This document shows, piece by piece, positions 19,085 through 34,564 of a DNA stretch of 41,303 nucleotides (position 1 is the first letter of the stretch; each line of letters starts with the position of its first letter). The translations under genes and the position numbers were made by a program. The notes beneath the pieces are model-generated. The model saw only the letters and a program-made list of their open reading frames with translations, had not been told where the DNA came from and made no database searches. Location: the IMG/VR virus record IMGVR_UViG_3300028666_000010, positions 1 to 41,303 of that record; one strand, given 5' to 3'. This DNA is from a virus.

Positions 19085-19583
19085 GACAGGCAGGCCGTCG
19101 AAGTTCGACTCGGCATTCAGTGAGCAGGCCAGAAAGATTTGCGAGCTTGGCGCAACCGACCAGGAAATCGCTGACTTTTTCGAAGTCGATGTCAGGACAA
19201 TCTACCGTTGGAAGCACGACTTCCCAGAGTTTTGTCAGGCCCTAAAGGTCGGCAAGGAAGTTGCTGACGAGCGGGTCGAACGTAGCCTCTACCTCAAGGC
19301 GACCGGTTACGAGCAGGACGAAGTGAAGATTTTCATGCCTGGCGGGGCGATAGAACCTGTCTACGCGCCGTTCCGCGCCAAGATTGCACCTGACACAACG
19401 GCGGCAATCTTCTGGCTCAAGAACCGGAGGCCAGAGGCTTGGCGAGACGTGAACCGCACAGAGCACACGGGCGCGAACGGCGGGCCAATCGCGGCGTCAG
19501 TCGTTCCCGACCTGACCAATCTGACCAAGGAGCAGCGTGACCAGCTTAGAGGCATCCTCAGCCGCGTTACTGTCGAATCCTAA
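19074..19583 (+). CDS. terS: Terminase small subunit
   Basis: A 169-aa protein. The N-terminal HTH (about 15-48: EQARKICELGATDQEIADFF, then EVDVRTIYRWKHDFPEF) binds the packaging start. A central helical oligomerisation region and a C-terminal tail (LTKEQRDQLRGILSRV) for contacting TerL follow. Immediately followed by and overlapping terL by 47 bases. It should select pac on the concatemer; a headful mechanism is inferred from the P22-like head module. Confidence 0.88.
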   Translation: MKAETGRPSKFDSAFSEQARKICELGATDQEIADFFEVDVRTIYRWKHDFPEFCQALKVGKEVADERVERSLYLKATGYEQDEVKIFMPGGAIEPVYAPFRAKIAPDTTAAIFWLKNRRPEAWRDVNRTEHTGANGGPIAASVVPDLTNLTKEQRDQLRGILSRVTVES

Positions 19584-21102
19584 AGCCACATGGCGGGCGC
19601 TCGATTGTCTGGACGCAAAGGATAGCCTTCTCGATTTCTGCGGCCTGATAGAAATACCGGGCGCTCCGGTTGATGAAGACCCCGACTCAGATGTTGCGTT
19701 CAAGCCCATTCGCCAGCCGCCGGCAAAGCATCACCGGCTTCTGATCGACAAGCTGGAGGCGGTAGAGCGAGGCGAGATCAAGCGCCTGATGGTGTTCATG
19801 CCGCCCGGATCGGCAAAGAGCACCTATGCAAGCGTGGTGTTTCCGCCCTGGTTCATGGGCAGGAAGAAGCGCCGCAATGTGATTGTGGCGACCTATGCGA
19901 GCGACCTTGCCCGCAAGATCGGCAGGCGGGCGCGCAGCATCATCAAGCAGCCTGTCTATCGCGAGATATTCGGCACGGGTTTAAGCCCGGACAGTTCGGC
20001 GGCAGACGAGTGGTCGCTGGAGAACGAGAACGAGTTCATGGGCGGCGGTATCCTTTCGGGGATCACCGGCAACCGCGCGGACGGAATTATCATCGACGAT
20101 CCTATCAAGGGCCGTCAGGACGCGGACAGCGAGGTCATCCGCGAACGCACGCTCACTGAGTATCAGGACTCGATCAAGACCCGTCTTAAGCCTGGTGGTT
20201 GGATCGTTCTGATTCAAACCCGCTGGCATGAAGACGATCTTGCCGGTTCGATCCTGCCTGAAAAATACGATGGTGAGAGCGGGTTCATTCAGTGCCGCGA
20301 TGGCGAGCGCTGGTATGTGATCAGCCTGCCAGCCGAGGCGACACACGCGGACGATCCGCTGGGCCGCAAGCGTGGCGAGTTTCTATGGCCCGAATGGTTC
20401 ACGGCAGAGCATTGGGCGGCGTTTCGCGCCAATCCAAGAACGTGGTCTGCGCTCTATCAGCAAAGGCCGCAGCCTGACGAAGGCACATATTTCAAGCGCG
20501 AGTGGTTCAAGCGATACAAAACCGCGCCGAAGGAACTGCACTACTACGGCACCAGCGATTATGCGGTGACGGAAGACGGCGGTGACTTCACCGTTCATCG
20601 TGTGTGGGGCGTCGATCCCAATGGCGACATCTACCTGATGCCGGGCGGGTTTCGAGGCCAGACCGCATCCGATGTGTGGATCGACCGCAAGCTGGACTTG
20701 GTGAAGCGCTACAAGCCCTTTGCATGGTTTGGCGAGGCTGGCGTCATTCAGAAGGCGATAGAGCCTGCGCTGACGCGACGTTCGCGCGAGCGGCAAATCT
20801 ACTGCCGGTTCGAATGGCTTCCGAGCATTGCCGACAAGCCGACGAGGGCGCGAGGTTTTCAGGCCCGCGCCTCGATGGGAACGGTTTGGTTCCCCGAGGG
20901 CCAAGAGGGCGACGACATTCTGGACGAATATCTGCGCTTCCCTGCAGGCAAGAACGACGATGACGTGGACAACGGTTCGCTGATCGGCCGCGCCCTCGAT
21001 GAAGCGCATCCGGCGATTGCAGCTCAAGAACACAAGCCCAAACCAAAAGACCGCTGGGACAGCGACACAGAGGAAGACGAAGATTCATGGAAGACGGTGT
21101 GA
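19537..21102 (+). CDS. terL: Terminase large subunit
   Basis: A 521-aa packaging motor. The ATPase has Walker A PPGSAKST (89-96), Walker B GIIIDDP (D187/D188) and the coupling motif QTRWHEDDLAG (about 213-225). The C-terminal RNase H-like nuclease begins near YYGTSDYAVTEDGGDFTVH (about 333-351), whose Asp residues bind metal. Together with TerS it cuts concatemers and pumps DNA through the portal. The start inside terS is kept because it begins the family's N-terminus. It overlaps the portal gene by 16 bases. Confidence 0.95.
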   Translation: MTSLEASSAALLSNPKATWRALDCLDAKDSLLDFCGLIEIPGAPVDEDPDSDVAFKPIRQPPAKHHRLLIDKLEAVERGEIKRLMVFMPPGSAKSTYASVVFPPWFMGRKKRRNVIVATYASDLARKIGRRARSIIKQPVYREIFGTGLSPDSSAADEWSLENENEFMGGGILSGITGNRADGIIIDDPIKGRQDADSEVIRERTLTEYQDSIKTRLKPGGWIVLIQTRWHEDDLAGSILPEKYDGESGFIQCRDGERWYVISLPAEATHADDPLGRKRGEFLWPEWFTAEHWAAFRANPRTWSALYQQRPQPDEGTYFKREWFKRYKTAPKELHYYGTSDYAVTEDGGDFTVHRVWGVDPNGDIYLMPGGFRGQTASDVWIDRKLDLVKRYKPFAWFGEAGVIQKAIEPALTRRSRERQIYCRFEWLPSIADKPTRARGFQARASMGTVWFPEGQEGDDILDEYLRFPAGKNDDDVDNGSLIGRALDEAHPAIAAQEHKPKPKDRWDSDTEEDEDSWKTV

Positions 21103-22910
21103 CGACAGCGGATGTGGAGGATGTTGCAGACGCAGCGCCACAGCCCCTTCCTGTCGAAACGCTCATTCGGATGTTCGAGGCTTCGGAAGAATCGACGATT
21201 GACGAGCGCCAAGGCTCAGAGCGCGACCGGGATTATTACGACAACATCCAGCTCACGGCGGAAGAAGAAGCCGTTCTCAAGAAGCGCAAGCAGCCCATCG
21301 TCATCGACAACAAGATCAAGGGAAAGGTCGATTACCTCGTAGGGCACGAGATCAGGACACGCACCGATCCGAAGGCGTTCCCGCGCACCCCGAAGGAGGA
21401 GGACGCGGCCAACGCAGCCACAGACGCGCTGCGCTTCGTGGCCGACTCTACGCGCTTCTCGCAGGCCAAGACCAAGGTCTGGGAGAATGTGCTCATCGAA
21501 GGCATGGGCGGCGTTCTGATCGGCTGCAAGCACAAGAAGGATGGCAAGGTCGATATCACGATCAAGCAGATTCCGTGGGACAGGTTGTTCCGCGATCCTC
21601 ACAGCCGCGAACGTGATTTCAGCGATGCGACGTACAAAGGCATCGTCACATGGATGGACTACGATGTGGCGGTCAAGAAATGGCCGGACGCTACTGACGC
21701 GCTCGAAGTCACGCTATCGCAGTCCAATTCGCAAACCTATGACGACAGGCCCAAACATCGCATCTGGGCGGACGGCAAGCGCAAGCGCGTAAGGGTCTGC
21801 GAGATTTACTATCGCAATGACGGCGTGTGGTTCCAGGCGTTCTACACAGAGGGCGGACTTCTTAGCGGCAATGAGCCGGTCAAATACGTTGACCAGGACA
21901 AAGAGCCGGAATGCCCGCTTGAACTTCTTGGGGGCTATTGCAACCGCGAGAACGAGCGATACGGCATCGTTCGCCCGCTTATCTCGCTCCAGGACGAGCA
22001 GAACAAGCGCCGCTCCAAGGCTCTGCACCTTCTTAGCGTGCGCCAGGTCATTGCGGAGAAGGGCGCGGTGGCGAACGTCGCGACTGCCCGCGCCGAACTG
22101 GCCAAGCCTGACGGCTATGTCGAAGTCACGCCGAACATGCGCTTCGACATCGCGCAGACGAACGATTTGGCACAGGGCCAGTTCCAACTTCTGGCCCAGA
22201 CCGATCAGGCCCTTTCCCAGCAGGGCGCAAACGCGGCCCTTCTAGGCAAGGATCAGAACGCGCCATCAGGCCGCGCCATTCTTGCCAACCAGCAGGGCGG
22301 GCAGACAGAGCTAGCGCCGCTCCTTGATGGCTTGCGAGACTGGCAGCGCCGCGTGATGACGCAGGTGTGGAATCGTATCCGCCAGTATTGGACGGCGGAG
22401 ACATGGATTCGCGTCACGGATGATGAGAACAACCTGAAATGGGTTGGGCTCAACGTGCCGCAAGTGGCGCAAACGGCTTACGGCCCGCAACAGGTTGGCG
22501 TAGAAAACCCGGTTGCGGATTTGATGGTGGACATCACTATCGAGGAAGCGCCCGACACGGCGAACATCCAGGCCGAACAGTTCGAGCAGCTTACGCAGAT
22601 GGTCACGGCAGGCATTCAGATCCCGCCGGATGTTGTGATCGAGGCATCGTCCTTGCGGAACAAGGCAGCGATCCTTGACCGGATGCGCGGCGATCCGCAG
22701 GCGCAGGCGCAACAGCAGGCCGAGCAGAAGCAGAAAGCGGACGCGGTATTCGCGGCCAAGCTCGATATCGACAAATCGACGGCGGAGAAGAACAGGGCAT
22801 CCGCCATCAAATCAATTTCCGACGCGGCAACACAGCATCACCAAGCGACGTTGCCGCCTCCAGAAATCTCGCCGCCGGAGACATCGGGCGTGAACGTGCC
22901 GCCGACGTAA
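21087..22910 (+). CDS. P22-like portal protein
   Basis: A 607-aa member of the P22-like portal family, recognised by RDRDYYDNIQLTAEEE near the N-terminus, KQPIVIDNKIKGKVDYLVG, RTDPKAFPRTPKEEDAANAA and IPWDRLFRDPHSRERDFSDA. A dodecamer forms the DNA channel at one head vertex. The C-terminus (from about 535) is Gln/Ala-rich and helical, like the P22 portal barrel. This family, with the absence of tape measure and sheath genes, points to a podovirus. Confidence 0.95.
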   Translation: MEDGVTTADVEDVADAAPQPLPVETLIRMFEASEESTIDERQGSERDRDYYDNIQLTAEEEAVLKKRKQPIVIDNKIKGKVDYLVGHEIRTRTDPKAFPRTPKEEDAANAATDALRFVADSTRFSQAKTKVWENVLIEGMGGVLIGCKHKKDGKVDITIKQIPWDRLFRDPHSRERDFSDATYKGIVTWMDYDVAVKKWPDATDALEVTLSQSNSQTYDDRPKHRIWADGKRKRVRVCEIYYRNDGVWFQAFYTEGGLLSGNEPVKYVDQDKEPECPLELLGGYCNRENERYGIVRPLISLQDEQNKRRSKALHLLSVRQVIAEKGAVANVATARAELAKPDGYVEVTPNMRFDIAQTNDLAQGQFQLLAQTDQALSQQGANAALLGKDQNAPSGRAILANQQGGQTELAPLLDGLRDWQRRVMTQVWNRIRQYWTAETWIRVTDDENNLKWVGLNVPQVAQTAYGPQQVGVENPVADLMVDITIEEAPDTANIQAEQFEQLTQMVTAGIQIPPDVVIEASSLRNKAAILDRMRGDPQAQAQQQAEQKQKADAVFAAKLDIDKSTAEKNRASAIKSISDAATQHHQATLPPPEISPPETSGVNVPPT

Positions 22911-23784: not shown

Positions 23785-24858
23785 ATGGCAGACACACAAA
23801 CCGCCACTGGCTTGCGCGTGCAGCAGTGGGACGACAAATTCTTCACCGAGTTCCTGAACGAGAACCCGTTCTCCCGTTACATGGGTACGGACGAGAACTC
23901 GATCATTCAGGTGAAGGAAAACCTGACCAAGAAGAAGGGCGATAGCATTACCTTCGCCCTGGTCAATCGCCTGAATCAGGACGCCATCACCGGCTCGAAC
24001 ACGCTGGAAGGCAATGAAGAGAACGTCGAGCAGCGTTCTTTCAAGGTCTATGTGGACAAATGGCGCAAGGCCACTCGCGTCTCCGAAATGGAGGAACAGA
24101 AAAACGCGATCAACCTGCGCGATGCGTCACGTTCCGTCCTCATGGATTTCAAGATGGAATACATCCGGGACCGTGTGATCACGTCCTTGGGCTCCATCAA
24201 TGGCGTAGCCTATGCCGACGCCACGGAAACCCAGAAGGATGCATGGTTGGTGGACAATTCCGACCGTGTTCTGTTCGGCGCCGCCAAGTCCAACAATGCC
24301 GCGAACGACCATTCGGCTGCGTTGGCACAGATCGACGCCACAGCGGACAAGCTGACCCCGGATGCGCTTTCGATCATGAAGCGCATGGCTTACACGTCCA
24401 GCCCAAAGGTCCGTCCCATCCGCACCTCGAACGGCAAGTATTACTACCTTGCCTTCGCCGGTTCGTGGGCGTTCCGCGATCTCAAGACCAACTCGACCAT
24501 CACGCAGGCTCAGCGTGAAGTGATGCTCGCCAACCAGAACAACAAGCTGTTCGACGGCGGCGACATCGAGTGGGACGGGATCGTGGTGCACGAGGTTCCC
24601 GACATCGGGGTGATCTCGAACGGCACGATCAACTGCCAGCCTGTCTATCTGATGGGTGCGCAGGCGCTGGGCTACGCGATTGCGCGTCGCACCAAGACGG
24701 TGACCAAGGAGTTCGACTACGGCGACAAGTACGGCGTTGCAATCGACACCATCGACGGTCTCGAAAAGATGCTGTTCGGCTCGGGCTCGGGTGACACCGA
24801 CGACTTGAAGCAGCACGGCATTGTGACGGGCTACTTCTCGGGCGTGGCCGACTCGTAA
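23785..24858 (+). CDS. Major capsid protein, N4-gp56 family
   Basis: 357 aa. Marker segments are VQQWDDKFFTEFLNENPFSR, KKGDSITFALVNRL, WRKATRVSEMEEQKNAINLR, an SSPKVRPIR segment and a C-terminal RTKTVTKEFDYGDKYGVAID, all typical of the N4-gp56/DUF4043 group of HK97-fold coat proteins. It begins after GAAGGAAAC (Shine-Dalgarno) and is bracketed by terminators, indicating separately tuned expression. Confidence 0.95.
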   Translation: MADTQTATGLRVQQWDDKFFTEFLNENPFSRYMGTDENSIIQVKENLTKKKGDSITFALVNRLNQDAITGSNTLEGNEENVEQRSFKVYVDKWRKATRVSEMEEQKNAINLRDASRSVLMDFKMEYIRDRVITSLGSINGVAYADATETQKDAWLVDNSDRVLFGAAKSNNAANDHSAALAQIDATADKLTPDALSIMKRMAYTSSPKVRPIRTSNGKYYYLAFAGSWAFRDLKTNSTITQAQREVMLANQNNKLFDGGDIEWDGIVVHEVPDIGVISNGTINCQPVYLMGAQALGYAIARRTKTVTKEFDYGDKYGVAIDTIDGLEKMLFGSGSGDTDDLKQHGIVTGYFSGVADS

Positions 24859-25447: not shown

Positions 25448-25777
25448 ATGGCCCTGACCAAAGCAGATCTTCGCGACGCAATTGCCGAGGAACTTGGCAT
25501 CAAGCGTGCGGAAGAAGCTCTTTCTGCCGCCGATGCTGTTCTCATCGAGCGCAGAATTGATGGCGTCCACGAATATCTGTTGGGCGAAGGCTTGGTCTAT
25601 TGGGACATTGACGACATACCGGATGCGGTGCGCGAACCCATGACGATGATCGTGGCTTCACGCGCCGCTCCGGCCTTTGGCGTGCAGTATGCAGGTGGTC
25701 CGGAAGGCACGCGCCTGCTTCGGATTCATGCGGCCCAGCGCGGCTCCAGCGAGCCTGTGAAGGCTGAATACTTCTGA
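25448..25777 (+). CDS. Head-tail adaptor, P22 gp4-like (109 aa)
   Basis: A small helical protein (MALTKADLRDAIAEELGIKR ... LIERRIDGVHEYL) with a C-terminal segment PAFGVQYAGGPEGTRLLRIH. Size and position between head genes and the gp10-like hub match the P22 gp4 tail accessory factor that extends the portal. Its stop overlaps the next start by one base. Confidence 0.7.
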   Translation: MALTKADLRDAIAEELGIKRAEEALSAADAVLIERRIDGVHEYLLGEGLVYWDIDDIPDAVREPMTMIVASRAAPAFGVQYAGGPEGTRLLRIHAAQRGSSEPVKAEYF

Positions 25778-27183
25778 TGCTCCAGCCCATCCCGCTCGCC
25801 GTTGCATCGGACGCGGCGGCAAGCCCAGCCTTTTCATCGCAACGTCTTCGCAACTGGTATGTGGAAACGACGCCGACCCGGGCAAAGGGGCCGCTCGCAT
25901 TGTACTGCACCCCCGGCGCTAAGCCTTGGGCGAATGTCGGGACGGGGCCGATAAGAGGCGGTCGCAAGATCAAAGGCACGCTCTACATCGTGTCGGGATC
26001 GAGCCTTTACAAAGTTTCAAGCGATGGAACGGCAACGCTTATTGGGGCAGTAAGCGGCAGCGGCCCTGTTGTGATGAGCGTGAACGATGCGGCCCAGATG
26101 GCAATCTCATTGTCTGACGGCACCGGGTACATCTACGACAGCACGGCCAATACGCTAAACCAGATCACCGATGAGGATTTCTTCGGCGGTCCTTCGGTCG
26201 GTTATCTGAACGGGTATTTCATCTGGGGCACAGCAGACGAACGGTTCCAGATTTCCTCGATAAATGCGGGGGCGGATTACGACGCGCTGGATTTTGCGAG
26301 CGCCGAGTCCTCGCCAGACAATCTCAAGCGCGTCTTTGTCGATCACGGCGAAGTCTGGCTCATGGGCGAGGAGACGATTGAACCTTGGTACAATTCCGGC
26401 GCTGCGGACTTTCCGTTTGCACCTGTCAACCAGACGGTTATTCCGAAGGGTCTTATGGGCCGATACGCGGTCGGCTCACTCGACAGCACTGTGTTCTGGG
26501 TTGGGATCGACGCAGAGGCAGGCGGCGGGCCTATAGTTTATCGGGCAAACGGCTATGTACCGGAACGCATCTCGACACATGCGATAGAACGCATTCTCGC
26601 GACGGTAACCGACTTCGATCAGGTCGTGGCCGTAACCTATGTGCAAGACGGCCATTCGTTTTTTGGGTTGATCCTGCCGAGCGCGCCGGCTGTCTTCTAT
26701 GACGTGGCAACCGGTCTTTGGCATGAGCGCGAGAGTTATGGCCTAGGCCGCTGGATCGGGGCTTGCCATTTCTACGCCTATGAAAAGCAGCTCATCGGCT
26801 CTTACCGCGACGGCAAGATATTCGAACTAGACCAATCGACGTTCACGGATGACACCGATTTGCCGGTGATCAGCGAGCTTGTTTCGATTCCGACTGGCGA
26901 TGACGGCAGCTATCACTCTATGCCGCTGTTCCAGATCGACATCGAAGGCGGTTCGGGACTTGTCACGGGGCAAGGCTCCGATCCCCAGATGATGCTCTCG
27001 TTCTCGGATGATCGCGGTTTCACTTGGTCGAACGAGCTCTGGCGCTCCATGGGCAAGATGGGCAACTACGGTTTGCGCGTGATGTGGAGACGGTTGGGGC
27101 AATTCCGCTCGCGCGTCTTCAAGATCAGGATTTCAGACCCTGTAAAGCGGGTTGTCATTCAGGCATACGCGGACATTCAGTAG
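25777..27183 (+). CDS. Tail hub / packaged-DNA stabilisation protein, P22 gp10-like
   Basis: A 468-aa, strand-rich propeller-like protein. Markers are RLRNWYVETTPTRAKGPLAL, LYIVSGSSLYKVSSDG, YLNGYFIWG, and GEVWLMGEETIEPWYNSG, typical of the gp10/stabilise family of podoviruses. It closes the tail below gp4 and holds packaged DNA. C-terminal strands end FKIRISDPVKRVVIQAYADI. Its TAG shares a base with the next GTG. Confidence 0.85.
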   Translation: MLQPIPLAVASDAAASPAFSSQRLRNWYVETTPTRAKGPLALYCTPGAKPWANVGTGPIRGGRKIKGTLYIVSGSSLYKVSSDGTATLIGAVSGSGPVVMSVNDAAQMAISLSDGTGYIYDSTANTLNQITDEDFFGGPSVGYLNGYFIWGTADERFQISSINAGADYDALDFASAESSPDNLKRVFVDHGEVWLMGEETIEPWYNSGAADFPFAPVNQTVIPKGLMGRYAVGSLDSTVFWVGIDAEAGGGPIVYRANGYVPERISTHAIERILATVTDFDQVVAVTYVQDGHSFFGLILPSAPAVFYDVATGLWHERESYGLGRWIGACHFYAYEKQLIGSYRDGKIFELDQSTFTDDTDLPVISELVSIPTGDDGSYHSMPLFQIDIEGGSGLVTGQGSDPQMMLSFSDDRGFTWSNELWRSMGKMGNYGLRVMWRRLGQFRSRVFKIRISDPVKRVVIQAYADIQ

Positions 27184-27821
27184 TGGCAAGCGTCAAATCG
27201 GCATTGCCTCCTCCAAAAGTGCCGATGACTGATCCTAAAACAGGCCTCGTGACGCCCGCTTGGTATCGCTATTTCCAAACCGATCACGAGCGCGTGGGCG
27301 GCGGCGTTGAGGACAAGGTAGAGGTCGCGGCGCAGAGCGGCGAGGTCGCGCAAGTGGCGGCTGATACTGCGAACACGGCGGCGGCGACGGCACAGGCAGC
27401 GGCCACAGCCGCGAACACAGCGGCCTCAACCGCCCAAGGTGCCGCCGACAGTGCCAATACGGTTGCGGCAATCATCGGCGGCTATCCGAGCGGATTGACG
27501 CTGACGGCCTCCGCAGACGGCGCAACGGCAAAGATCGTCGTGAGCAGTCACACGATGATCTATCCGGACAAAACCGTGAGCGTGACGGGCGATACGCTGT
27601 CCGGCCTCGCTTACGGCACGTCCTACGACATCTATTACGACGATCCCGCCCGCGCTGGCGGGGCGGTGACATTCAACGCGGTAACGGACGGCACGGCTTT
27701 TCCAAGCCCGACCAATCCCAGCCGCATCTACATCGGCAGCGCAATGACACCGGCAACATCTGGCGATCCTGATGTGACGGGGGTCAATCGTGCGCCTTAT
27801 GGGAAGAACACGAGCGCATGA
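27183..27821 (+). CDS. Tail needle/appendage-like structural protein (212 aa)
   Basis: GTG start at 27183 (TAGTG junction). N-terminal anchor motif TPAWYRYFQTDHERVGGG, then an Ala/Thr-rich alpha-helical heptad stretch (AADTANTAAATAQAAATAAN) suggesting a trimeric coiled coil, then a C-terminal strand-rich domain with YGTSYDIYYDDPARAGGAV. The layout fits a short tail needle or appendage. Confidence 0.65.
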   Translation: MASVKSALPPPKVPMTDPKTGLVTPAWYRYFQTDHERVGGGVEDKVEVAAQSGEVAQVAADTANTAAATAQAAATAANTAASTAQGAADSANTVAAIIGGYPSGLTLTASADGATAKIVVSSHTMIYPDKTVSVTGDTLSGLAYGTSYDIYYDDPARAGGAVTFNAVTDGTAFPSPTNPSRIYIGSAMTPATSGDPDVTGVNRAPYGKNTSA

Positions 27822-28381
27822 AGTATTTTCAAAGGTTGGCAGAGCGGATCGACGTTGTTCCGTTGCTCAATGCCGCAACCCGGCAGCGCGGCCTTTGGAA
27901 CACAAACCCGCTCAGGCAGTCATTCAAGGATTCGCCCCACGAAGAAGTGGAGGATATCTGGCTTCGCTTCACAGATATGGCCGAGTTCGAGCGCACTGGC
28001 GATTTAAAGGTTGTTGGCGACGATCTGGAGTGTGTGGCGCAGCCTGCGTGGCACGCCCTCCCGCAGGCTCATGCCATCGTGTTCAGCGTCATGCGCATGG
28101 TGGAGGCCGAGCGACTTGGCCGGGTGATGATTACCCGCCTCGACCCCGGCAAGCGGATCAAGCCGCACAGCGACGTTCTGGGGGCCTATGCAGGCTATTA
28201 CTCGCGCTATCACGTTCCGCTCCTAAGCCTGCCAGGTTCAACATTCCGCGCAGGTAACGAGCAAGTGTTCATGGGGGCTGGCGAGCTTTGGTGGTTCGAC
28301 GCCTCGGCAGAGCATGAGGTGGTGAACAACAGCGTCGATGACAGAGTTCATCTCATCATAGACGTTCGGGTGCCGCGATGA
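27818..28381 (+). CDS. Aspartyl/asparaginyl beta-hydroxylase-like Fe(II)/2OG oxygenase
   Basis: A 187-aa cupin-fold protein of the AspH type. The metal triad is visible: H117-x-D119 in KPHSDV and H166 in SAEHEV, with R176 ten residues later as 2-oxoglutarate anchor. Core strands (RVMITRLDPGKRIKPH; FRAGNEQVFMGAGELWWF) match the family. Such enzymes hydroxylate Asp/Asn side chains or, in variants, other substrates, using O2 and 2-oxoglutarate. It sits inside the tail/ejection operon, overlapping the GNAT gene by four bases. The substrate may be a virion or host protein; this is inference. Confidence 0.82.
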   Translation: MKYFQRLAERIDVVPLLNAATRQRGLWNTNPLRQSFKDSPHEEVEDIWLRFTDMAEFERTGDLKVVGDDLECVAQPAWHALPQAHAIVFSVMRMVEAERLGRVMITRLDPGKRIKPHSDVLGAYAGYYSRYHVPLLSLPGSTFRAGNEQVFMGAGELWWFDASAEHEVVNNSVDDRVHLIIDVRVPR

Positions 28382-28839
28382 TTACGGCGCAGATCGAAAA
28401 CTTCATGCGCGGATTGGGCGAATTGCGTCCGCTCTTGCCGGTTCACTACGAAGAACTGGGGCTGAACCGCGACAAGGTTCCGCTCGATCCCATGTTTGAA
28501 GTCTATGGCGCGCGCGAAGCGGTTGGAGAGCTTCTCTACATCACGCTTCGCGAGGATGGGAGGCTTGTAGGGTATTACATCGGCTTTGTTGCTCCGGGCT
28601 TGCACTATCGCACATGCCTCACACTCACGATGGATATTTTCTATGTCGCGCCGGATCACCGCGGAAATGGCGGCGGCAAACTCCTGTTCGATGCGGTTCG
28701 CACGGAAGCACTGCGCCGTGGCGTGCAGCGCTGGTTTGTCGGCGACAAGTGCCACGCATCTTTCCACGCGGAAAAACTCTTTGAGTCCTTTGGGTTCGAA
28801 AAGGTCGAACACCACTGGAGCCTTTGGTTAGGGGCTTAG
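28378..28839 (+). CDS. GNAT-family N-acetyltransferase
   Basis: 153 aa. Motif A for acetyl-CoA is DHRGNGGGKLLFDAV (about 93-107), preceded by the strand TLTMDIFYVAP; motif B is around WFVGDKCHASFHAEKLFESF. Members acetylate amines on proteins or small molecules. ATG overlaps the oxygenase stop (ATGA), so the two are made together. GNAT proteins occur in several podovirus tail modules, but the substrate is unknown. Confidence 0.88.
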   Translation: MITAQIENFMRGLGELRPLLPVHYEELGLNRDKVPLDPMFEVYGAREAVGELLYITLREDGRLVGYYIGFVAPGLHYRTCLTLTMDIFYVAPDHRGNGGGKLLFDAVRTEALRRGVQRWFVGDKCHASFHAEKLFESFGFEKVEHHWSLWLGA

Positions 28840-28840
28840 A

Positions 28841-29770
28841 ATGGTTGCAGCAGCAATAGCGGCAAGTGCGGTTGTCGGCGCGGGCGCAAGCCTTATTGGT
28901 GGCAGCCAAGCCGCGAGCGCAGCAGAACAAGGCGCGCAAGCCCAAGCGGATGCCAACAAATACGCTGCCGATATTCAGAAGCAGATTTTCGAGCAACAGC
29001 GCAGCGACCTTGCGCCGTGGCGCGCCGCGGGGTCTGCCGCACTCAGCGAAATCACGGCGCTCAATGGCCTTGCACCTCCGACCGCCGGGACGACCACGAC
29101 GACAGGTGGAACACCCGGCACCACCGTTCGCGTTCCCGTAGGCAATTCATACGCCAATAGCTCGCATCCGATTTTCGGCGCAATCGCTTCGCGTGTGGGC
29201 AATATCGAACTTCCCGGTGGCTATCGGCTCGTAACCACTGGTGGGACGCCTGGTGTCACCACCACCACTCCAGGTCAAACGAGCGCACAGCAGCAGCAAG
29301 CCGCATACGACCGCTTCCGCGTCTCACCCGGCTATCAATTCTCGTTCGATCAGGGCCAGCAGGCGGTAGAAAACAGTGCCGCTGCGCGTGGCGGCGTGCA
29401 TTCCGGCGCGACCATGAAGGCGCTGGACAGGTTCGGAACGGGCTTGGCCAATCAGGAATATGGCGACTATTACAACCGCCTCGCGGCGGAAGCGGGGATT
29501 GGTCAGACGGCAGTTGCACAAGGCAATGCCGCCGCACAGAACTACGGCAATAGCGCGGCTCAACTTGCGCAGAATACCGGCGCCGCTCGCGCGAGTGCCT
29601 ACGGTCAAGCCGGGCAGGCGATGAGCAATGCTTACGGCGGCGTTGCAAGTGCCATCAATGGCGGGATCGGAAACTACCTCTACATGTCGCAAATGGGATC
29701 GCAACCGGCAGGCACATTCCAACCGGTTCAGGTCACGCCCCAAGTCTCTGCTGCAAGCTATGGATTTTGA
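28841..29770 (+). CDS. Virion DNA-ejection protein, first (309 aa)
   Basis: The N-terminus is a hydrophobic Ala/Gly segment (AAIAASAVVGAGASLIGGSQ), followed by a Gln/Ala-rich helix. The C-terminal half has FRVSPGYQFSFDQGQQAVEN and LANQEYGDYYNRLAAEAGIG, typical of P22 gp7-like injection proteins. Two TTGGTPG segments with Thr runs flank a central insert (about 84-145). It should leave the virion with the DNA and help cross the envelope. Confidence 0.75.
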   Translation: MVAAAIAASAVVGAGASLIGGSQAASAAEQGAQAQADANKYAADIQKQIFEQQRSDLAPWRAAGSAALSEITALNGLAPPTAGTTTTTGGTPGTTVRVPVGNSYANSSHPIFGAIASRVGNIELPGGYRLVTTGGTPGVTTTTPGQTSAQQQQAAYDRFRVSPGYQFSFDQGQQAVENSAAARGGVHSGATMKALDRFGTGLANQEYGDYYNRLAAEAGIGQTAVAQGNAAAQNYGNSAAQLAQNTGAARASAYGQAGQAMSNAYGGVASAINGGIGNYLYMSQMGSQPAGTFQPVQVTPQVSAASYGF

Positions 29771-29772
29771 CC

Positions 29773-31179
29773 ATGCCCGGATTCGCTGATGCCTATGGAA
29801 TAAACCTCCCGGCCATCGATCAGGCGGTAGCGCAAAAGCGCGCCTACGATCAGGCGTTCCAGCAGCAGGGCGCGCTACAGCGCTTCGGAGCCCAAGCCTT
29901 CGCGCCGGACGCGACCGATGCAACGCGCGCACAAGCGATTTCCGGCCTTGCTGCCGTCGATCCTGCAAAGGCGGTTCAGTTCCAGGAAGTCTTCATGAAA
30001 ATGAATGACGCCCAGCGCCAGCACGCCAAGGACTTGAACAACATCATCGGCGCGACTGCATATAGCCTCAAGCAACTGCCGCCTGAACAGCGTGCCGCGC
30101 GGCTTCAGTCGCAAATCCCCGATCTTGTGAAAAGCGGAATCTCGATGGACAAAATCCAGTCCGTCGATTTGAGCGATGCAGGGTTGGACGGCTTGGTCAG
30201 TCAGGCGCGCACGCTGGACCAGATGATCACGCAGGGCAATGCTGACCGCACCTTTCAGGCAGGCCGCTCGGATCATGCGGATACGATGCGTCATCAAGGG
30301 GTTATGGAAAATATCGCCATTCAAAACGCGAACAAGCCGATCTCTGTGTCGGCAGGATCAACTCTGATCGATCCTCGCACACATCAACCTATCGCGCTGC
30401 CCAACGGAATTAGCGGTCCTGAGGCCAGCCCATCGAATGGTCTACATGGTGACGAATACCTGAAAACGCTTTCTCCGCAGATTCAGCCTCAGGTGAGGGC
30501 GCTCGTGGAAGGCCGCATGCAATTCCCGTCTGGATACGCGCTCAAAACTCCTTACTGGCAGAATATGCTCCAGGCCGTCAGTCAGTACGACCCGTCCTTT
30601 GATGCGATCAACTACAACGCACGCTCGAAAACGCGGTCTGACTTCACGTCCGGGAAATCGGCGCAGAATATCAAGGCGCTCAATACCGCCATCGGCCATC
30701 TTGGCAAGCTGGGTGAGCAAATTGGCGGCACGGTTTCGACTGGCGGCTATCCGGGCGCAACGCTCGTGAACGCGGTTGGCAATGAATACAACCGGGCATC
30801 TGGCGATGCTGGAATCACGAACTTCGAGCAAACCGCATCGGCGCTCGCTACCGAGTTGACCAACGTGTTTCGTGGCAGCGGCGGCGCGGAAGCTGACGTG
30901 ACTCGTTATCTCGGCCAACTAAATTCCAACGCCTCCAAGGAACAGAAGCTGGGCGCGGTGCATAATATCGTCGGACTGCTCAACGCCCGCCTCGACGCTA
31001 TCAACGAGCGATATAAGGCAGGCATGGGCACGACCGCAGACGTGACGCAACTGCTCGATCCGCGCGCCGTCGAAACTTTGAAGAAGTGGGCGGAAGATGG
31101 GGGGGGCGCGCCAGCAGCGAGCGCCTCCGGTGGCGGCAATGTCATCCACTACGATGCCCAAGGAAACCGCGTGCAATGA
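29773..31179 (+). CDS. Virion DNA-ejection protein, second (468 aa)
   Basis: ATG 29773 (MPGFADAYGINLPAIDQAVA) is chosen over an upstream TTG. The product is long and mainly helical, Gln/Ala-rich, with a central domain RSKTRSDFTSGKSAQNIKAL and YNRASGDAGITNFEQTASAL. It resembles the large internal virion proteins of P22-like phages (gp20/gp16 class). The next gene overlaps its stop. Confidence 0.75.
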   Translation: MPGFADAYGINLPAIDQAVAQKRAYDQAFQQQGALQRFGAQAFAPDATDATRAQAISGLAAVDPAKAVQFQEVFMKMNDAQRQHAKDLNNIIGATAYSLKQLPPEQRAARLQSQIPDLVKSGISMDKIQSVDLSDAGLDGLVSQARTLDQMITQGNADRTFQAGRSDHADTMRHQGVMENIAIQNANKPISVSAGSTLIDPRTHQPIALPNGISGPEASPSNGLHGDEYLKTLSPQIQPQVRALVEGRMQFPSGYALKTPYWQNMLQAVSQYDPSFDAINYNARSKTRSDFTSGKSAQNIKALNTAIGHLGKLGEQIGGTVSTGGYPGATLVNAVGNEYNRASGDAGITNFEQTASALATELTNVFRGSGGAEADVTRYLGQLNSNASKEQKLGAVHNIVGLLNARLDAINERYKAGMGTTADVTQLLDPRAVETLKKWAEDGGGAPAASASGGGNVIHYDAQGNRVQ

Positions 31180-32711
31180 GTGTGACCGCAGTTTCAGCAG
31201 ACGGCGTGCAGCATCAATTTCCTGACGGCACTGATCCGTCTGTCATCGACAAGGTTATGAAGGACTACGCCACTCCGAAAGATACTGCACAGCCCTCCAT
31301 TGTAGACCGTGCTATCGCAAGCCCGGTTGGCCGCTTCGCGCAGGAGAATGTGGTAGAGCCTGCTCTTGGGCTTGGGACACTTGCTGCACGCCAGTTTACT
31401 ACCGATCCGCGTGTCAATACCTTGGTAAACAAAGAGGGCGCGGCCTACGAAGGCGCACTCGCGCGCAATCGCAACACGCCTGGCTATGCGACAGAGCGCG
31501 CAAAAGCCGACAAGGCGATGGCGAACACGGGAGCAAGTGCCGGGGCTTTCCTGCCGTCTGTACAATCAACGATTGCCGGAACGGTAGGGCTGGCAGGCGG
31601 TCTCGATTCCTCGAATGCGATGGCCGACGCCGCGAGCGCGAAGCAGCAGGATTTCTCTAAAAACCATCCTTTTCTGTCCACGGCGGAGGGGTTGGTTGGT
31701 AGCTTGGCAGGCACGCCAGCAGGCCGAGCCGCGCTCCCCGCAAAGATCGCCAAGGCCTCTACTCCGACTGTCGAGGCTCTAAAGTCGGAAGCCCAAAAGG
31801 CCTATCAGGTCGTGGACAATTCGGGGCTGAAAGTAGCCGCGCCTGCCGTGCAGGATTTGGCGACTCAGATCCAAGCCGACGTAGCGAAGCGCGGCTTTCA
31901 TCCGATGCTGCACCCAAAGGCGGATGCAGTAATGGATGCGCTCAAATCTGTTTCCGGAGATGCGAAAAAGAAAATCGCCGCACAGGATCAATCAATTCAG
32001 CAGATGGAAATCCTTCGTCGCGTTGCCAAGGAAGGGGCAAAGTCCTCCGACCGCGCTGACCGCGCCATGGCTCGCGTTGTGCAGGATCACATCGACAATT
32101 TCATGGAGAATTTGAAGCCAGATCAGCTTTCGAGCGCTCCTGACCCGCAGGCGCAAGAAGCACTCATCACCGCTCGCGATCTTTGGACGAAGGCAAGCCG
32201 AGGCGAGATTATCCAGGATGCGCTTGATAAGGCCAAGAACGCGGCTGGAGCAAACTACACACAGGCGGGATACGCCACGGCGGTTCGCCAACGCTTTCGC
32301 CAAATTGCGAACAATGCTCGCGCCATGTCACGGTTTACGCCGGAGCAGCAAGGCCTCATCAAACACATTGTCCGTGGCGGTAAGACGGAGAATGTGCTTC
32401 GTCTTGTCGGCAAATTGGCGGTTCGTGGGCCTGTATCTGGCGCCGCATCTGCTGGAGCGGGGTTCGCAGCATTTGGTCCCGCTGGAGCATTGGCCCTCCC
32501 CGCGATAGGTGAGGCGGCGAAGGCAGGTTCTACGGCGTTGACGCTCAAAGCTGCTCGCAAGCTATCGGAAGTGGCGCGTGGGGCAGAGGTCGTGAAGGAG
32601 CCGCTTCTGCGCGCTCCCAGCAACCTACCGACCGCCGCCTACGGAATACCTGCGGTCAATGCCCTGATTCAGAACGATCAACGGAATGCTCTGTCTGCGT
32701 ATGGGCAGTAG
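31176..32711 (+). CDS. Virion DNA-ejection protein, third (511 aa)
   Basis: Starts at ATG 31176 (ATGA overlap) with the segment DGVQHQFPDGTDPSVIDKVM, a small N-terminal domain common in podovirus internal proteins. A long helical body follows, then a Gly/Ala-rich hydrophobic region (VSGAASAGAGFAAFGPAGAL), a possible membrane-inserting part. Likely the gp16-like protein acting at the inner membrane. Confidence 0.72.
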   Translation: MSVTAVSADGVQHQFPDGTDPSVIDKVMKDYATPKDTAQPSIVDRAIASPVGRFAQENVVEPALGLGTLAARQFTTDPRVNTLVNKEGAAYEGALARNRNTPGYATERAKADKAMANTGASAGAFLPSVQSTIAGTVGLAGGLDSSNAMADAASAKQQDFSKNHPFLSTAEGLVGSLAGTPAGRAALPAKIAKASTPTVEALKSEAQKAYQVVDNSGLKVAAPAVQDLATQIQADVAKRGFHPMLHPKADAVMDALKSVSGDAKKKIAAQDQSIQQMEILRRVAKEGAKSSDRADRAMARVVQDHIDNFMENLKPDQLSSAPDPQAQEALITARDLWTKASRGEIIQDALDKAKNAAGANYTQAGYATAVRQRFRQIANNARAMSRFTPEQQGLIKHIVRGGKTENVLRLVGKLAVRGPVSGAASAGAGFAAFGPAGALALPAIGEAAKAGSTALTLKAARKLSEVARGAEVVKEPLLRAPSNLPTAAYGIPAVNALIQNDQRNALSAYGQ

Positions 32712-32902: not shown

Positions 32903-34564
32903 ATGGCCGCTCGCTTTAGCTTGCCGATGATATCTGTGTTGGATTCGAACGCAAACCCTCTTGGTGGGGGTTCGCTGGAATTCTACGCCACCGGCACATC
33001 GACCCCGAAGACGGTCTATTCCGACAATGGGCTCGTAACGCCTGCGGCCAATCCTTACACGCTGGATTCGGCTGGTCGCCACGGCGACATCTTCCTTGAA
33101 TCCGCCGATTACAAAGTCATCGTCAAGGATTCCGCTGGCGCTGTCGTCAAGACGATGGACCCCGTGCATGGAGCGGCGACCGACGCAATCCCCACCCTCC
33201 AATCCGACGTTTCCACGCTGCAATCCGACCTTACGGATACGCAGGCCGATGTAGCCACCAACGCGACCGCGATTACGACGCTTACGACCAATACCCAAAA
33301 GGCGGTCAACTTCGTTGGTCGGCCAAACTCCAAGATAGCCATCTTTGGCGACAGCATCACAGCGCAGAATACATCCTCCGACGCACGGTCAAATCAGGCG
33401 CGCGGCTACATGGTCCAAGCCCACGCGCTTGCCATGCGCCGGTTTTCCTACGACTCCACCCTCAACTTTGGCGTGGGTGGCAACACCGTCACGCAAATGA
33501 TCGCACGAATTCAAGACGTGATCGATGCGGCTCCGGCCCGTGTTCTGTTTCTTGGCGGAACGAATGATCTGAGCGGGGGCGACACGGCGGCAACCATCTT
33601 TGCGCGCATCCAAACCGTCATCAGCACGCTCAACGATGCGGGCATTCCGGTTGATGTCATTCCGGTAACGCCTCGCTCCTACAACATGGACGCGACGAAG
33701 CGTAAGCACCTCAACCACCTCAACCACCTTATTTTGAACGAAGTAGGCAACCGCAATCCGGCCTTCTTCGGGGTCGTTCCCGCCAACATCCCGCTTATCG
33801 ACATCAATTCGTCTACAGGCGATCCGATCACAGGCGGCTTCTTCCCGGAGAGTGACAGCACCTTCCTCCATCCACAGGACTATGGCGCGACACTGATGGG
33901 TCAGGTGATATCGGACTACTATTCGGTCTTGTTCCCGACATTGCCAGTCTATTTCAACAATCAATCGGACGCCTACGACGCAACGTATAACCCATACGGC
34001 TACATCAATCTCAACCCGTTCCTGACAGGTACGAGCGGCACGGCAGGCACAGGCATCACCGGAAGCGTTGCGACAAGCTACACCATAGAACGCAATACCG
34101 GCTCTACGCTCACGGCAACGGTCAGCAAGGGAACGGATTCAGCGCCTCAAAATGGCGTAACACAGATTATCGCACTTGGAAGGTCTGCGACAGGTGTGGA
34201 TGGCGAGAACATCCGCATGAAGCAGACGCATTTTGATTTCAATTTCAGCGCGTTTGCTGCGGGTGACAAGTTCGTTCTGGAAATCGATGTGGAACAAGCC
34301 GATCTTGTCAACGTCAAGAACATCTCTGCACTCATAAGTTCCGGCACAACGTCCACTTGGTATGGGCTCAGCGCATCTGGCTTGACGGGTGACAGAACGA
34401 TAGCAGCTTGCCGCCGCCTGATCGCTACGCACACCTTCACGCTGACAAGCCCAAGCGAGACTGTGGATGTGTTTATGAACATCCAAGCCGATTGCTCGGA
34501 CAGCGGTACAGCGCCGAGCGGGACGATCACCGTTCGCAAGTTTGCCGTGCGCAAAGTCCCATGA
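32903..34564 (+). CDS. Tailspike with SGNH esterase domain
   Basis: A 553-aa protein. The N-terminus (1-90: MAARFSLPMISVLDSNANPL ... YTLDSAGRHGDIFLESADYK) is a head-binding domain shared by many podovirus tailspikes. A coiled coil follows (98-132). An SGNH hydrolase has block I FGDSIT (Ser151), block II FGVGGN (about 189-194), block III GGTND (N221) and block V with His323. In block V the canonical DxxH Asp is replaced (TFLH; an Asp lies five before His), so a Ser-His dyad may act. The C-terminal third is strand-rich. Likely removes acyl groups from host polysaccharide. Confidence 0.85.
   Translation: MAARFSLPMISVLDSNANPLGGGSLEFYATGTSTPKTVYSDNGLVTPAANPYTLDSAGRHGDIFLESADYKVIVKDSAGAVVKTMDPVHGAATDAIPTLQSDVSTLQSDLTDTQADVATNATAITTLTTNTQKAVNFVGRPNSKIAIFGDSITAQNTSSDARSNQARGYMVQAHALAMRRFSYDSTLNFGVGGNTVTQMIARIQDVIDAAPARVLFLGGTNDLSGGDTAATIFARIQTVISTLNDAGIPVDVIPVTPRSYNMDATKRKHLNHLNHLILNEVGNRNPAFFGVVPANIPLIDINSSTGDPITGGFFPESDSTFLHPQDYGATLMGQVISDYYSVLFPTLPVYFNNQSDAYDATYNPYGYINLNPFLTGTSGTAGTGITGSVATSYTIERNTGSTLTATVSKGTDSAPQNGVTQIIALGRSATGVDGENIRMKQTHFDFNFSAFAAGDKFVLEIDVEQADLVNVKNISALISSGTTSTWYGLSASGLTGDRTIAACRRLIATHTFTLTSPSETVDVFMNIQADCSDSGTAPSGTITVRKFAVRKVP

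Follow-up and report, generated by a model that had tools for sequence, protein, structure and literature searches.

Why does a temperate phage carry a predicted oxygenase gene and an acetyltransferase gene among the genes of its virion? The question is raised by a temperate phage record from IMG/VR (41,303 bp; "the window" means this whole stretch of DNA), in which the virion genes follow a P22-like order (Table 1). A preliminary description had placed the two genes, OX and GNAT, between tail needle-like and ejection genes with a shared ATGA junction; its coordinates and the junction at 28378-28381 are exact. A second ATGA (27818-27821) couples OX to the upstream tail gene, and EJ7 starts 1 nt past the GNAT stop codon. 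The head-closure gene is found two genes upstream of OX. The downstream gene is of the gp7 ejection type as described, but the needle name of the upstream gene comes from its position, because its tail-fibre matches are weak; a search found no Pfam family above threshold for it. Downstream of the ejection-region genes are the GDSL lipase-domain protein, possibly a host-surface deacylase, then a lysozyme, and an integrase on the opposite strand. The "major head protein" label that phrog_21712 gives to one gene of this region is doubtful, since the real major head protein is encoded upstream.

Table 1. Features of the virion region in the window.
Feature	Position	Strand	Evidence or remark
Large terminase	19537-21102		
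Portal	21087-22910		
Major head protein	23785-24858		
Head-closure protein (Hc3), P22 gp10-like	25777..27183	+	phrog_578 1e-123, PF11134 8e-12; anchor gene for the independent sample
Tail gene, position of P22 gene 26 (needle)	27183..27821	+	identity from position; phrog_18920 tail 6e-4 (weak)
OX, Fe(II)/2-oxoglutarate oxygenase, PF05118 family	27818..28381	+	187 aa; H117/D119/H166/R176
ATGA stop/start overlap of OX and GNAT (translational coupling)	28378..28381	+	sequence
GNAT acetyltransferase, OX-associated subfamily	28378..28839	+	153 aa; PF00583 5.8e-10, phrog_1249, family alignment
EJ7, ejection protein, P22 gp7-like	28841..29770	+	N-terminus MVAAAI; PF25688 3.7e-9, phrog_598 1.3e-48
Second ejection-region gene, position of P22 gp20	29767..31179	+	position; phrog_36852 (weak)
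Third gene after GNAT	31176-32711		phrog_21712, labelled major head protein
Tail-region protein with GDSL lipase/acylhydrolase domain	32903-34564		PF13472 6e-17; phrog_6102

Predicted chemistry of OX and GNAT

OX matches PF05118 (Asp_Arg_Hydrox) with an E value of 3.7e-19 (69.5 bits against a curated cut-off of 22.6). The residues H117, D119, H166 and R176 are placed as the preliminary description had claimed. In an alignment of 80 distinct relatives, the three metal ligands H117, D119 and H166 are invariant (80/80), as are Gly155 and Asn170, and the 2OG-binding R176 is kept in 78. The AF2 model (pLDDT 95.3) folds as a double-stranded beta-helix. Its nearest PDB fold is L-proline cis-4-hydroxylase 4p7w (Foldseek E 4.2e-11), followed by a nucleoside-antibiotic hydroxylase and AspH; by sequence profile, too, proline hydroxylases rank first and AspH lower. 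The earlier name "AspH-type" is too specific, because hydroxylases of free L-proline are closer among the solved relatives. AspH was therefore rejected as the best name. OX is predicted to carry out Fe(II)/2OG oxidation; the family does not reveal the substrate class.

GNAT scores 39.9 bits against PF00583 (E=5.8e-10; cut-off 20.7) and has a canonical acetyl-CoA loop, R95-G-N-G98-G-G100. The loop is thus intact in the window, as first described, but not across the family: Gly98 is kept in 17 of 85 relatives, with Arg95 and Gly100 common. H23, Y66, H76, D86 and K124 are nearly invariant in the family alignment. D86 is at the beta4 position, where many GNATs put an acidic base. Median dN/dS values among close pairs of relatives (about 0.05 for OX and 0.08 for GNAT) indicate purifying selection on both genes.

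Conservation of the pair and exchange of its slot

A tblastn search with OX matched three phage records in GenBank and no others: in Pseudomonas phage PfAn1 and Limnohabitans phage DC33 GNAT adjoins OX, and one environmental genome has OX alone. GenBank files DC33 (PQ492659.1, L002; 39 kb) under Inoviridae, which seems a mistake in view of the size and genes of this phage. IMG/VR contains at least 572 candidate stretches encoding OX relatives. Among the 80 best viral matches, chosen by similarity to OX and not as a random sample, the same GNAT family is directly downstream in 75 and EJ7 is downstream in 70. A -4 overlap is the commonest OX-GNAT spacing (39 of 78 relatives), usually with EJ7 within a few bases after. 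The order OX-GNAT-EJ7 is constant in diverse phages and the upstream gene varies. In the other five of the 80 loci, OX is followed by another GNAT (L050/L051) or by a cupin (L064/L065/L087). In one locus without the usual GNAT (L003), the next gene resembles an ejection protein. The 12 closest, prophage-type OX loci in bacterial genomes all carry GNAT, nearly all together with an ejection or head-closure gene, and the pair is absent from all 23 of the other, more distant bacterial OX homologues. These latter homologues (L134-L156, about 30-43% identical, without a GNAT neighbor) come from Sphingomonadales, Henriciella, Methylomonas, cyanobacteria and others.

Chance or isolated pairing was rejected, because purifying selection acts on both genes in relatives and the arrangement occurs widely. 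OX and GNAT, described before as a pair, do form a unit, and the earlier proposal is partly supported: two of the findings named as speaking against it, genes that never co-occur and broken active sites, are contradicted by the 75 of 80 co-occurrences and by the OX ligands (80/80). OX distances correlate weakly with GNAT, EJ7 and head-closure distances (0.19 at most), so there is no strong or tight co-evolution signal.

Since sampling by OX inflates co-occurrence, loci were re-sampled by the head-closure protein. This gave 57 loci that include EJ7 and 1.8 kb or more of the DNA before it. The slot preceding EJ7 is occupied there by a cupin in 24 (a cupin-SET fusion in five of these), GNAT alone in nine, other GNAT types in seven, OX+GNAT in four, a sulfotransferase-like-GNAT fusion in three and a helical protein in two; no occupant was recognized in eight. 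The idea that OX+GNAT is near-universal in such phages is wrong and an artefact of OX sampling, the pair being found in two of the 41 loci with 5 kb of room. Cupin and GNAT types are mutually exclusive in the 57 loci. Some slots look empty; therefore the slot function is dispensable or replaceable. Two kinds of false helper-HMM matches were corrected by eye: those of the GNAT3 model on L175, L179, L190 and L236, and those of the sulfotransferase fusion model, which matches ordinary GNATs via its GNAT half.

The cupin-SET fusions (L161, L162, L163, L174 and L184; 281-308 aa; phrog_34170, unknown function) carry NHS/NHA and IDYR motifs in their SET parts, and SET is above the Pfam cut-off in all except L161. 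The usual activity of SET domains is protein-lysine methylation. We consider these fusions putative phage protein-lysine methyltransferases beside ejection genes. The sulfotransferase-like-GNAT fusions (355 aa, with the weakly sulfotransferase-like domain at the N-terminus) are encoded at L206:3808-4875, L218:6237-7304 and L230:3232-4299; their sulfotransferase label is weak because it depends on weak Pfam matches. No useful match came from PDB sequence searches with either the SET or the sulfotransferase parts. Small slot cupins with conserved His residues (L168, L171, L176, L186, L193, L211, L221, L222 and L231) have their matches in PHROGs families that carry the label "short tail fiber protein" or "tail fiber adhesin"; that label may be wrong, or the cupins may be structural.

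A group of sibling phages (L200, L204-L206, L212, L213, L218, L223, L224, L226, L228, L230, L232 and L235) differ in slot occupant but share the surrounding proteins. Their head-closure proteins are 87-98% identical to that of L204; identity is 89-95% for a small upstream protein and 89-98% for EJ7 residues 61-160. L204 and L205 carry OX+GNAT. Their GNAT is 61-69% identical to the OX-linked GNATs of distant phages and has no sibling GNAT among its nine best matches; the best matches of the sibling GNATs are other OX-less GNATs. From these matches, OX and its own GNAT subfamily seem to be gained and lost together.

The same slot is present in P22 and T7. The P22 order is 10-26-14-7, so OX and GNAT occupy the gene 14 position; the T7 order is 12-13-14, with gene 13 directly before ejection gene 14. 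T7 gp13 (L090:3308-3724; PF11090) has a confident AF2 model (pLDDT 93) with Foldseek matches to RimI and PA4794, which predicts a GNAT fold, and its family alignment contains no acetyl-CoA loop. Pfam lists gp13 as a probable scaffold protein. Sequence homology of the window GNAT to gp13 was not found (hhalign probability 0.4%, no sequence-profile similarity), and only fold and position link them; a PHROGs search gave no phrog_651 match for the window GNAT either. P22 gp14 belongs to DUF2824 (PF11039)/phrog_651. It is probably GNAT-like too, because the slot proteins of L191 and L235 match both phrog_651 and phrog_1249 (phage acetyltransferase). Its loop is degenerate (PEIRGFSKE).

The EJ7 N-terminus and the candidate substrate

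The N-terminus of EJ7 differs with the slot class. Next to OX+GNAT it is mostly MVAAA or MVAVA (59 of 82 start with MVA). It is MA[IL] next to GNAT alone, MGL next to the sulfotransferase-like fusion, MP next to GNAT2, MGIET next to GNAT3, mostly MT[FW] next to cupins and MSG next to cupin-SET. EJ7 start codons were assigned by fixed criteria (ATG, ribosome site, distance), and these classes therefore contain a few errors. Among the siblings the N-termini differ by slot class as well (MVAAA, MA, MGL, MP), and the otherwise distant PfAn1 has OX+GNAT with an MVAAA EJ7. In leave-one-out prediction with close relatives masked, the slot class was predicted from 12 EJ7 N-terminal residues at 0.62, from 130 core residues at 0.48, from the whole head-closure protein at 0.38 and from shuffled data at 0.20, for loci that are not independent of each other. 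In eight loci (L062, L061, L060, L074, L008, L037, L023 and L045), including those of the OX+GNAT phages L062 and L074, EJ7 has an extension of 15-22 residues before VAAA. Several extensions have a Cys shortly before VAAA, and some contain KLRGE-like words resembling the cleaved P22 gp7 leader (MLHAFTLGRKLRGEEPSYPE). In P22, gp7 residues 1-20 form a leader that is cleaved by host OpdA and is largely dispensable (PMC8402733). A search for an OX-specific acceptor residue in EJ7 found none; the conserved Pro59 and Pro163 are also present in OX-less siblings. D, N, P or H occurs within residues 2-21 in 19 of 65 MV-type EJ7 N-termini. A single-sequence scan of EJ7 matched the window's own fragments only.

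We tentatively favor, at somewhat below an even chance, a role of OX and GNAT as a late maturation cassette for the ejection apparatus, with the neighboring ejection protein as the most likely target. The pair would be a two-gene cassette in the swap site that P22 gene 14 and T7 gene 13 fill, directly upstream of the first ejection protein (gp7/gp14-like). Translational coupling would make both enzymes alongside the virion proteins, and they would work on the ejection apparatus in the cytoplasm of the host, while heads are assembled or earlier. OX would hydroxylate and GNAT would acetylate the candidate ejection protein; since the GNAT partner replaces the GNAT-fold gp14 or gp13, it may in addition serve as an assembly factor that binds its client. 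The modification would tune the packaging, stability or release of the ejection protein. We infer both the protein modification itself and the ejection protein as its target. The ejection protein is favored over the fiber or needle because the downstream neighbor EJ7 is constant and the upstream one is variable. Position, coupling, exchangeability and N-terminal tracking are most simply accounted for by a slot that encodes factors acting on the adjoining ejection protein, with OX+GNAT as its hydroxylating and acetylating version. Against this maturation role, the EJ7 N-terminus adjoins the slot, and the co-swap could be hitchhiking by recombination inside EJ7. In addition, free-amino-acid hydroxylases are the closest relatives of OX, many GNAT relatives have a degenerate loop, EJ7 has no visible OX-specific target residue, the OX, GNAT and EJ7 distances are weakly correlated, and in DC33 the small protein that follows OX+GNAT starts with MGVTA. 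The possible hitchhiking, the lack of an OX-specific residue, the likeness of OX and the weak correlations hold our preference below even and leave weight on a small-molecule role and, behind it, on a structural GNAT.

A small-molecule role is somewhat doubtful. In that case OX would hydroxylate a metabolite such as a free amino acid, GNAT would acetylate the same compound or a polyamine, and the effect would be on the packing of DNA, on host metabolism or on a defence signal; late expression would be all that the virion operon provides. Among solved structures, those nearest to OX (the free L-proline cis-4- and 3-hydroxylases and the nucleoside-antibiotic hydroxylase) rank ahead of or level with AspH, OX relatives weakly match TIGR04531 (non-proteinogenic amino acid hydroxylase), and small amines are substrates of many GNATs. 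However, a metabolic pair would not be expected to keep a fixed place by the ejection gene, to be exchanged with SET fusions or with the GNAT-fold P22 gp14 or T7 gp13, or to track the EJ7 N-terminus.

Another rather unlikely reading makes the GNAT-fold protein a chaperone or morphogenesis factor without catalytic activity that serves the ejection protein, as P22 gp14 and T7 gp13 presumably do, with OX as an accessory enzyme whose chemistry has little relevance to the GNAT role. The GNAT fold of T7 gp13 without an acetyl-CoA loop fits such a factor, as do the retention of the canonical loop Gly in no more than 17 of 85 GNAT relatives and the fact that gp13 goes unmentioned in the mature-virion core structure paper (PMC11784390). 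The loop of the window GNAT is intact, however, with D86, H76 and K124 nearly invariant, and OX, with its invariant metal ligands, is tied to one GNAT subfamily. A host-directed, moron-like pair that modifies a host protein late in infection (e.g., a ribosomal protein, as RimI does) and is hotspot cargo without a virion role would agree with the optional presence, frequent swapping, discordant gene distances and weak RimI similarity, but it is improbable, as such cargo would be expected to vary randomly in kind and orientation, with no link to the first residues of EJ7, and gene order and overlaps here are uniform.

If the ejection protein is the target, injected phage proteins would be chemically matured by phage enzymes, a step that we did not find described for podoviruses, and the slot swapping would be explained. 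P22 14 and T7 13, two old orphan genes, could then be tested as GNAT-fold factors. Ejection proteins form channels, and hydroxylating and acetylating them could adjust how they insert into membranes, how stable they are in the head, or how they evade host proteases and exclusion systems. More broadly, and doubtfully, short-tailed phages may share a dedicated swap locus for ejection-protein maturation enzymes, each occupant recognizing a matching EJ7 N-terminal segment in the manner of an enzyme and its leader peptide, with P22 gp14 and T7 gp13 as decayed or specialized GNAT-fold members. Even with another substrate, the locus would be an index for uncharacterized phage modification enzymes in large contig collections.

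Comparison with known systems

In the literature, modification of any virion protein linked to this slot was not found, in agreement with the earlier statement that such a maturation step is not known for podoviruses. A GNAT at the slot, in contrast, is not new: one paper reports it beside the ejection genes of a T7-like phage (PMC10142737), and another had already treated the Cobavirus GNAT as the positional equivalent of T7 gp13 (PMC6775973). In Cobavirus/Zobellviridae, a GNAT of the same broad family is found beside internal virion protein or ejection genes. Unlike the window GNAT, it has no oxygenase partner.

OX shares the PF05118 fold and the HxD...H + Arg residues with L-proline cis-4-hydroxylase (4p7w) and AspH (5apa). 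It differs in being phage-encoded and paired with GNAT, and the identity is about 20%. It consists of the oxygenase domain only, lacking both the TPR domain of AspH proper and the C-terminal part of cis-P4H. Among cultured phages, PfAn1 has the adjacent OX-GNAT pair with an MVAAA ejection protein directly after; OX is annotated there as hypothetical and GNAT as a putative acetyltransferase, with no function proposed for the pair. DC33 has the adjacent pair too, but its next small protein starts with MGVTA. P22 gene 14 and T7 gene 13 are, like GNAT, immediately upstream of the first ejection gene. Their products are without a canonical acetyl-CoA loop and no oxygenase gene precedes them, whereas the window GNAT has this loop and follows OX.
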